Origin: Trachythela sp. YZ-2020
Lineage: Eukaryota > Cnidaria > Anthozoa > Malacalcyonacea > Clavulariidae
Assembly (NCBI GenBank): GCA_016169945.1
Contig: JADLSH010000184.1
Location: 2,418,001 to 2,482,000, forward strand
Direction of reading: 5' to 3'
DNA: 64,000 nucleotides
This document shows, one piece after another, positions 16,101-19,100 of this stretch; within the stretch, counting starts at the first letter, position 1; each line of letters opens with the position of its first letter. The translations under genes and the position numbers were made by a program. A model generated the notes under the pieces. The model was not told where the DNA came from and searched no databases. It saw only the letters and a program-made list of their open reading frames with translations.

Positions 16101-19100
16101 ATTTAGAAGATCATGAAGTTAGTTTTTGATGATGAGACAGGAGAGGAGACTTTTTCTTTTTACCAAGCAACTTGGGGTATCTCTTCTTGTGGATTGACGG
16201 AAAATGAACATTTTATAAGACGATACGATAGTTGTTCAGCTAAACATTTATAAAGTTATTTAGCCAAGTAATAGTTATACGGTATTCACGTAAGAAATAA
16301 ATTGTTTGAGTACAAACCCATTTTAAACTTTTTTTTCTTCTTATGTGGAACTTTGATTATCGAGACAATGTGCAAGAGACACTATTATAAGTTCATGTGT
16401 AAAAAAAAAGTATGTAAACATGAATAAATCGAATTTCGTTATAATCTTTCGTGATTGTGGTGGCTCTGAAAAGAGCCGGGTTTTTTTAGTCTCAAGGAAG
16501 AGACGAGACCTGTTCCGGGAGAGACGGGCCAAGATCCGGGAGATCGTCCATCCACTGTGTATCGTCTTCTAGGAAGTCGATACCTGCACCGTCTTTATAC
16601 TCCTCCTCGAATTTGAGAAGTAATTGTGGGGCCTCACGCTGGAAAAATTCGTTGAGGGCCTTCGCCTTGGCTGCCTCTTCTTCCTTCTTGTAATAATTTT
16701 TCTTTGCCCGTGCGGCCTCTCGCTGTTTTCGGTCCATGATGGATGTCAAACTATGTAGAAAGGTCAACCTTATATATGTAAAGAGATTCGCGCGCTTTTA
16801 TGATTAAGGTCAATGGCCAAGGTCGCACGTGAAACGCACGTGATAATGTGCGTAGATACACCTGGATATGCGTAAATACGCGTAGATACATGTATCTCCG
16901 TGTAATTTCCCCACGGCGTAAGTAATTAGTATTCAATATGGTGTCGTTTGCGTAGATACGCGTAGATACACCTGGATATGTAGATACATGTAAGTACATA
17001 TAGATACGTTTAGCAATGCTAAAATTCTATATAAAAGCAGGCCAACAACACATTCACATATGATCACCATGCAAAATATCGGCTTGCAAAATATCGGAGA
17101 TTGTTGCGGTAATTGATATGGACGGATATCAGATTCAAAACAAGTTCCTTTGTAAGGAGATGGGTCTGTTGAAAGTTGGTGACACCGAAGCGAAGTCCCT
17201 CTTCTTTGACATCAACCTACGATGGGGCGATCTCACTCATAAAGATCGAAAGACATGCAGTTATGTTCAAAACCGGATCCATAAATTACCGCTTGGCGTG
17301 CCGCGGGGCATCAAAGCATTCCAAATTTCAGAATTGGAAGCAATTGTAGAGAATTTCTACATTGAAACCCGTAAAAACCCGGCCTCTACAATTGCATACA
17401 AAGGAGTCCATTATGAAAAGGATCTGTTGGCAAAACTTAATATCCCCTCCGTAAATCTGGAATACTTTGGTTGCCCTAAAGCTGGAGAATTATTTGATCA
17501 ACTTATATGGCTGGAAACCTGTGGCAACCACATCGAGGACAACGCCTACCAACACTGCGCCAAAGTAGAGATCGAGGCCTATGCACTATGGATGCGACAG
17601 TCTTAAAGACAAAAAAAAACAACCCGGCTCTTTTCAGAGCCATCACATTCACGAAAGATTATAACGAAATTCGATTTATTTCTTAAAAACATACAACACT
17701 ATGATTGTTCTTTAAATTGTTCTATACGTTTCTTCTCCAAATGTTCTCTCTATAAAATTTGTAAATACAATGCCAAAAACAGTGTTTACATCCTCAGTTT
17801 ATACTCTGAACACGCATATATGCATATTTACCTGTATCTACGCGTATCTACGCATATCCGTATGCATCTACATGTATCTACGCGTATCTACGCAAATGAC
17901 GTCATATGGCGAGATCCTCAAAATGCTGACGTCATATGGCGGGAAAATTCACCCTGTATGGGGGGTATTATCTACTTCGCTGGTTTCTCCGCTTTCATAC
18001 AAGAAACTCTGCACAATGTAAAGCCGGTTTTCCACTTGCGATTTTTTTCGCGCGAAGCGAATTTTTCTTTTGTCTTTATCCAATTAGTTCCACATGGTTC
18101 CAGTTGAGAGACCAAAGACAAATGAAAAATTCGCTTCGCACGAAAAAATTCGCAAGTGGTAAACCGGCATAATCCAAGGTTTAATCACGCTATACCGAAT
18201 CTCACGTTATAACTATGTAATCAGTAAAACCAATAAAGAGATTTTAAGATGAGGGTATATAACCTAGAAAAGGGGCTGAAAGCCAGGTAGTTCGGCAATC
18301 CCTACCTTAGCAGTATTAACCACAGCACCGTAACCAGTTGAGATGCCACATCCAAGCAAACAAACTTTCTCCAACGGTGCAGACTCTGAAATCTGAAAAA
18401 AATGGAATGATGACTTTGGAAGTCATGTAATTACTGGTACTGTTAGTAGGTCAGTATGCAGAAGCTCTTAGCAGTTGGACACTTAGCAGAGGAACAGCAT
18501 ATTAAGTACTGCTACACAGTAGAAATATGTGTGGCAGAGTATTCTGTACCCAAAACAATTTCAAAAGTAGTCGACATTAGAACATTTCTCACCTTAGCCA
18601 CAGCGACCTCAGGCAGTACAGTGTACTCACTGAATGTACTGGTTCCCATGAAGTGGAAAATCTCCTGTCCTTTACATCTAAACCTTGTCGTACCATCAGG
18701 CATTACACCTTTGCCTTGGGTTGCCCTGTCATCATAATATACAAGATTATGTTATTCGCAGCAAAAAGGTCCAATTCCATCATGTCCAGCCAGAACCAAA
18801 ACTCTTAAAAATATGGCTTCTCGCCGGCAGGGCTTTCAGAATGATTTAAAGTAGGTGGTTGTCCCCAAAAAGTAGCCGTCTGTGACTAATAGTGATCGAG
18901 AGTCAAAAAAAGTGAAAAAAAAACTAGACGGGTCTGGATGCATGCTCTCGCATGGAAGTTGAAAAAACGCGCAGATATAAAAAACAAAGCACAGGTCTGC
19001 AGCAAATTTAATATTATCGCCTTTTCGACATCAAACAAACGAAATTAAGGTGGCTGAAAACTAACTCCTTTATTTGTCACTTATATATTTGTTAAAGGTG

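Follow-up and report, generated by a model that had tools for sequence, protein, structure and literature searches.

The window, the whole 64,000-nt stretch that was analysed (C322:2418001-2482000, from a host genome of 578 Mb in 396 contigs), contains two small divergent genes, LEFT and RIGHT, within a short mobile element whose features are listed in Table 1. Inspection of the element borders revealed inverted repeats of about 160 bp beginning with AGTAGATAA. Perfect 6-bp duplications, each of a different sequence, were found in all six LEFT/RIGHT-kind copies whose two ends could both be placed among the loci read (the window copy, L026, L036, L040, L041, and L047); one end was found in each of eight more entries, among them L035, which is a stretch of the window itself. 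The inverted ends and 6-bp target duplications bear out the initial annotation, which had placed both genes in a mobile element.

Table 1. Features of the mobile element, in positions of the 64,000-nt window
Feature	Position	Strand	Remarks
Whole mobile element, 4,293 bp	13684..17976	.	Inverted ends AGTAGATAA[G/T]ACCCCCCAT... and 6-bp target-site duplication
Target-site duplication TCGCTG, left	13678..13683	+	
Left terminal inverted repeat, with 10-bp GCGTAGATAC repeats	13684..13840	+	84% identity to reverse complement of 17812-17976
Inner inverted duplication, left arm	16423..16487	.	65 bp, 95% complementary to 17616-17680
LEFT HDE-like GAAAGA (purine-rich downstream-element-like)	16445..16450	-	Read in sequence
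LEFT histone-type 3' stem-loop	16462..16477	-	RF00032, 30.2 bits
LEFT gene, 81 aa	16492..16737	-	No Pfam match
TATATAAG, TATA-box-like, upstream of LEFT	16769..16776	-	Read in sequence
TATATAAAAG, TATA-box-like, upstream of RIGHT	17028..17037	+	Read in sequence
RIGHT gene, 162 aa	17118..17606	+	Widespread family; this protein without Pfam match
Inner inverted duplication, right arm	17616..17680	.	Pairs with left arm 16423..16487
RIGHT histone-type 3' stem-loop	17626..17641	+	RF00032, 29.2 bits
RIGHT HDE-like GAAAGA	17653..17658	+	Read in sequence
Right terminal inverted repeat	17812..17976	-	Match to left repeat
Target-site duplication TCGCTG, right	17977..17982	+	

LEFT and RIGHT diverge from a shared region with a TATA-like box on each side; we take TATATAAG and TATATAAAAG to be putative TATA boxes from their likeness to the familiar motif. 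Searches of Pfam and PHROGs with LEFT, and of Pfam, PHROGs, and PDB sequences with RIGHT, returned no significant name for either protein. The LEFT search listed 25 database proteins at E <= 10, of which 21 lay at E <= 1e-6, and 48 RIGHT relatives compared with Pfam gave one weak F-box match. The predicted structure of RIGHT had a pLDDT of 88.9; a DEDDh exonuclease was considered, the top two Foldseek matches of the model being oligoribonuclease chains (E 0.24 and 0.38, TM 0.33), which were not significant. The window copy of RIGHT does not have the N-terminal start of its homologues (17064-17120) and begins at an internal ATG.

Several other features were observed in the window. Inside the element, a broken frame at 14124-14515 (-) reads like a short zinc-finger protein and adjoins a 92-bp tandem repeat at 14600-15042. 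Outside it, three frames at 44650-46106 (+), including a small basic core-protein-like frame at 45654-46106, had no Pfam match at E <= 0.1, and presumably resemble Polinton/adintovirus genes. The secretin-family (7tm_2) receptor-like genes at 49708-52449, 54734-57165, and 60348-63035 (-), the first of which was run against Pfam, are probably host genes.

Hairpins of LEFT, RIGHT, and host histone genes

A pattern search of the window located the 16-mer GGCTCTTTTCAGAGCC exactly at the two stem-loop positions and at no further site with up to three mismatches. Shuffled windows contained a mean of 0.31 such loose matches, with two or more in 6 of 100 shuffles; judged inside the window alone, the count of two hairpins is only moderately surprising. 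Both hairpins also fit GGYYYUUHUNARRRCC, which we take to be the 16-nt histone stem-loop consensus and used beside the Rfam model. RF00032 (Rfam Histone3) matched both over its full model length, with E values of 2.8e-6 and 6.1e-6 in a 1.4-kb search and of 1.3e-4 and 2.8e-4 over the whole window; neither match reaches the gathering score of 34, and a search at that cut-off returned nothing.

The 3' arrangement agreed closely with the initial annotation, which had called both stem-loops identical to the canonical histone type; exact 16-mers and RF00032 matches were present at both places, though the scores lie below the gathering score. As claimed, the hairpins follow the stop codons by 14 nt (LEFT) and 19 nt (RIGHT). 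ACC or ATC follows the hairpin, AAAGA lies 12 nt after it in both genes, and the spacing to GAAAGA, given earlier as 10-11 bases, is 11 bases at each. The absence of a nearby AATAAA also held: the 300 nt downstream of each gene, read on the sense strand, contain neither AATAAA nor ATTAAA. The caveat that the two hairpins belong to an inverted duplication, and are not independent, was right as well, the duplication being somewhat shorter than the approximately 75 bp first estimated. This non-independence is answered by the unrelated genes and other element copies described below, which carry the same layout.

The host histone genes H3 and H1 (L045) and H2A (L052) showed the 3' layout of the element genes, with AAAGA 12-13 nt after the hairpin in those read. 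H3 was identified by a 99% match and H2A by 13 C-terminal residues, of which 12 matched; H1 was named from its lysine-rich frame.

Recurrence and retention of the hairpin

Genome-wide, GGCTCTTTTCAGAGCC occurred at 139 exact sites and GGTTCTTTTMAGAACC (GGTTCT type) at 69, whereas the reversed controls gave 0 in both cases. Among 109,016 first-look candidates for RF00032, the best 75 were scored, and all 75 exceeded the gathering score. We read 72 hairpin rows in context, 71 of them unique (one lay in the overlapping stretches L017/L030). Most of these loci had been picked from hairpin sites, so that the counts indicate what hairpins follow and not the share of genes with one: by our own sorting, LEFT accounted for 17 rows, RIGHT for 6, a RING-like gene for 39, a 155-aa gene for 4, a diverged LEFT relative for 2, and host histones for 3. 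Histone-type hairpins thus follow five kinds of non-histone gene in the loci read. In 69 of the 72 rows the hairpin is followed by AAAGA at a distance of 11-13 nt, and A[AT]TAAA lies within about 155 nt in 5 of the 70 non-window rows, the host H1 and H3 rows among them.

The hairpins of the RING-like gene (37.3-38.1 bits) and of the LEFT relative (34.8 bits) passed the gathering score. They lie 20 nt past the stop in two RING-like copies measured and 19 nt past it in the LEFT relative of L044; the latter shares 35% identity with LEFT over 34 aa (E 1e-5). In the 155-aa gene family (L049-L051), three copies have a histone-type hairpin 70-78 nt past the stop, and inward-facing RF00032 pairs of equal score, 0.9-14 kb apart, may be further members. 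A cmscan (E <= 1) of L017 and L025 found the hairpin after RING-like and LEFT genes only; their GRF, Bcl-2-like, ATPase, and LRR frames were not followed by one, and neither was the 155-aa homologue in L025.

To approach the hairpin from the protein side, a search of the host genome with RIGHT listed 150 matches, from which we took the 79 copies reaching query residue 159 or beyond; ten more reaching residue 159 were left out, eight at 33-38% identity and two fragments of 26-27 residues. An exact same-strand hairpin stood at no fewer than 39 of the 79 copies, in 37 cases 15-62 nt beyond the match end and in two at -5; 32 are of the GGTTCT type and at least 7, among the sites listed, of the GGCTCT type. 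The remaining 40 copies are without an exact hairpin among the sites listed; five near-identical ones fall past the GGCTCT-type sites listed (to contig C323), and L058, L061, and L065 have near-exact or variant hairpins. No hairpin site was found beside the ten left-out matches among the sites listed, and including them gives 39 of 89. Viewed from the hairpin, a RIGHT gene in the same orientation ends shortly before 32 of the 69 GGTTCTTTTMAGAACC sites, compared with about 0.0008 expected by chance. Together with the reversed controls, this led us to drop a chance origin.

The 92 nt downstream were read in each of 13 copies picked by RIGHT protein match. Nine of them showed six pairs in the histone arrangement, eight fitting all 8 fixed positions and L061 fitting 6 of 8, with the hairpins GGTTCTTTTAAGAACC (seven times), GGTTCTTCTAAGAACC, and GGTTCCTTTAGGAACC. 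In a random control, 18 of 20,000 slices reached full score, an upper bound, as the slices came from the window including its own two hairpins. The covariation set comprised 17 segments, 14 of them distinct (L056 was left out as a repeat and L062-L064 for want of a hairpin). In this set, 98.8% of cells pair, compared with at most 52.4% when the partners were slid, and two stem pairs are altered on both sides. The covariation score was reached by 0 of 500 shuffles and the number of both-side-changed pairs by 35 of 500, scores that kinship among the segments can inflate; in a smaller set, with 8 distinct rows, covariation did not reach significance (62 of 500 shuffles).

The compensatory stem changes sought by the initial annotation were therefore found, in two pairs. 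It had also named copies without the stem-loop, or with unpaired mutations in it, as evidence against its reading, and a few such copies exist: L062-L064 (51-53% identity) have no hairpin within 92 nt, and L065, a close RIGHT copy, has a hairpin with one broken pair, so not every family member has the signal intact.

These comparisons bear on whether the hairpin is merely carried along, an ancestor having taken a host histone 3' flank that transposition then copied without current use. The host H1 hairpin is the same 16-mer GGCTCTTTTCAGAGCC, 16 of the 25 nt just downstream are identical as well, and many element copies are nearly identical, all of which would fit such carriage. However, the hairpin has remained intact, its stem changes being paired, next to proteins whose identity to the window copy is down to 62-73% in these nine cases and to 50-78% in the 32 GGTTCT-type copies, and unrelated genes have equal AAAGA spacing yet different spacer sequence. 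We therefore regard passive carriage as unlikely.

Traces of the hairpin were also sought in database homologues, some of which have lost the usual stop or frame, so that reading continues into the 3' flank. The full consensus hairpin is encodable in 11 of 189 homologues, some of which may derive from the same host genome, each time in a C-terminal tail, compared with 56 of 18,900 shuffled proteins; in P0107 and P0109 it looks one step from intact. Of eight RIGHT-family proteins with tails of at least 20 aa beyond the conserved end, whose motif was located in 122 of 164 proteins, two have the full hairpin, two a near one by our own reading, and four none.

Related elements and the site of the hairpin

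A second kind of element, the RING type (L011-L014, L016-L021, and L031/L032), contains the RING-like gene in mirrored copies, each side having one histone-type hairpin or two in tandem. AGTAGTA ends and perfect 6-bp duplications were present in seven of the ten loci examined; they could not be placed in L013, L014, and L039, nor in L042, a LEFT locus analysed alongside.

This architecture is relevant to a second alternative, in which the hairpin serves a DNA-level process such as replication or transposition and resembles the histone signal only incidentally. Consistent with such a role, the RING-type elements are long inverted repeats, nine of the 39 RING-like hairpins are the second of a tandem pair, spaced 90-208 bp from the first, and do not stand directly after a stop, and the window hairpins lie within the arms of the inner duplication. 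Against it, the hairpins lie away from the element termini, their loop and flanks match the histone model, and the GGTTCT-type sites counted above stand just past RIGHT genes in sense; moreover, L025, L036, L040, and L041 each show, over the stretch read, one LEFT gene with one hairpin. A DNA role thus appears improbable, slightly more so than passive carriage. If these were instead normal host genes in many copies, with 3' ends resembling those of histones, the many RIGHT matches would be accounted for, but this reading is very improbable given the perfect, differing target duplications of the six two-ended copies, for which the insertion structure rejects it.

The gene content of two of the loci read points to virus-related relatives, as judged from their frames. 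In L025, LEFT adjoins GRF-like, Bcl-2-like, and A32/FtsK-like ATPase frames, and L017 has a mirrored series of RING-like, Bcl-2-like, GRF, LRR, and ATPase-like frames. Bcl-2, ATPase, and RING scored below their Pfam cut-offs, and GRF was above its cut-off in L017 and L029. L017 also contains a DTDS-type fragment, which we take to be PolB-like and for which Pfam gave only PPL4 (E 0.061). Relatives in viral contigs, sought with RIGHT, the 155-aa protein, the ATPase, and the hairpin plus AAAGA pattern, were not found, nor were any found with the RIGHT alignment in a collection of genome contigs.

Proposed host processing and comparison with known systems

The host genome was searched for the histone processing machinery. 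The SLBP RNA-binding domain (PF15247) was found at C357:66294-67034 as two stretches over the cut-off, one aligned stretch holding a TAA. The best match to U7 snRNA (RF00066) in the host genome scored 22.6 bits against a cut-off of 34; U7 snRNA is short and poorly conserved.

What is directly established is that the signals are present, match those of host histones, recur after unrelated genes, and persist with paired changes in diverged relatives, and that the host has an SLBP domain; functional histone-type 3' ends are the best reading of the hairpins. We consider it highly probable that the window holds a short member of a family of transposing, virus-related elements with Polinton-like ends (AGTAG... 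inverted repeats and 6-bp target duplications), both of whose genes have functional histone-type 3' ends processed by the host. From this reading we infer that the transcripts are cleaved and left unpolyadenylated, that they follow S phase, and that the element benefits. Host SLBP would bind the hairpin of LEFT and RIGHT transcripts, and the U7-guided U7/CPSF73 histone machinery would cut the element RNA just after the stem-loop, leaving it without poly(A). Element protein production would then mainly coincide with histone production, RNA abundance being tied to S phase, a timing that would favour an element copying itself in dividing cells. The proposal of the initial annotation that the element adopted histone 3'-end processing is thereby strengthened by the mobile element, the signals common to host histones, and the hairpin retained with paired changes, and is qualified by a hairpin that is not universal.

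On balance we also lean towards a wider proposal: that a Polinton-type lineage ends a set of accessory genes with non-poly(A), host-histone-type 3' ends, so that their messages would be made, stabilised, and destroyed with S-phase histone mRNA, and that these would be the first non-histone protein-coding mobile-element genes on the SLBP/U7 pathway. To our knowledge, the histone 3' end is regarded as private to replication-dependent histone genes, and we found no prior report linking a histone stem-loop to mobile elements, of the Polinton type or any other, in titles, abstract starts, and term counts among the top results of longer lists. A mobile element using the signal on unrelated genes would provide natural, diverged examples of it, and suggests a parasite linked to the host cell cycle via RNA 3'-end formation. 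The element would also allow one to ask directly whether the stem-loop suffices to put a non-histone gene under S-phase control in a living animal. Such transcripts would escape poly(A)-selected RNA libraries, and the elements may accordingly be more active than is apparent.

Comparison with histone genes revealed both shared and distinct features. The replication-dependent metazoan histone genes (H1, H2A, H2B, H3, and H4) have, in the host genes read, the stem-loop, ACC, and AAAGA in common with the element genes; unlike them, the element encodes non-histone proteins and transposes. Small genes without a poly(A) signal, arranged in divergent pairs, are traits of histone genes, and the TATA-like boxes, divergent layout, and small frames of LEFT and RIGHT resemble a histone gene pair. 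In the cnidarian Hydractinia, histone genes with S-phase expression have a 16-bp stem-loop and a purine-rich HDE, as in the element genes, but in that account the signals are on host histones only (PMC5011920).

With regard to mobile elements, we file the window element as Polinton-like by its ends and not as a proven Polinton, the class resting on the ends and not on PolB, integrase, or capsid. According to a published account, elements of the Polinton type, integrating by a retroviral-type integrase, typically show 6-base duplications and inverted repeats, and the window element is like Polinton/Maverick elements and Polinton-like viruses in its inverted ends of more than 100 bp and its 6-bp target duplications (PMC12220804). 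The related copies with A32/FtsK-like ATPase, GRF, and Bcl-2-like frames add to the Polinton/Maverick likeness, whereas the window copy differs from these elements in being 4.3 kb long with two small genes.
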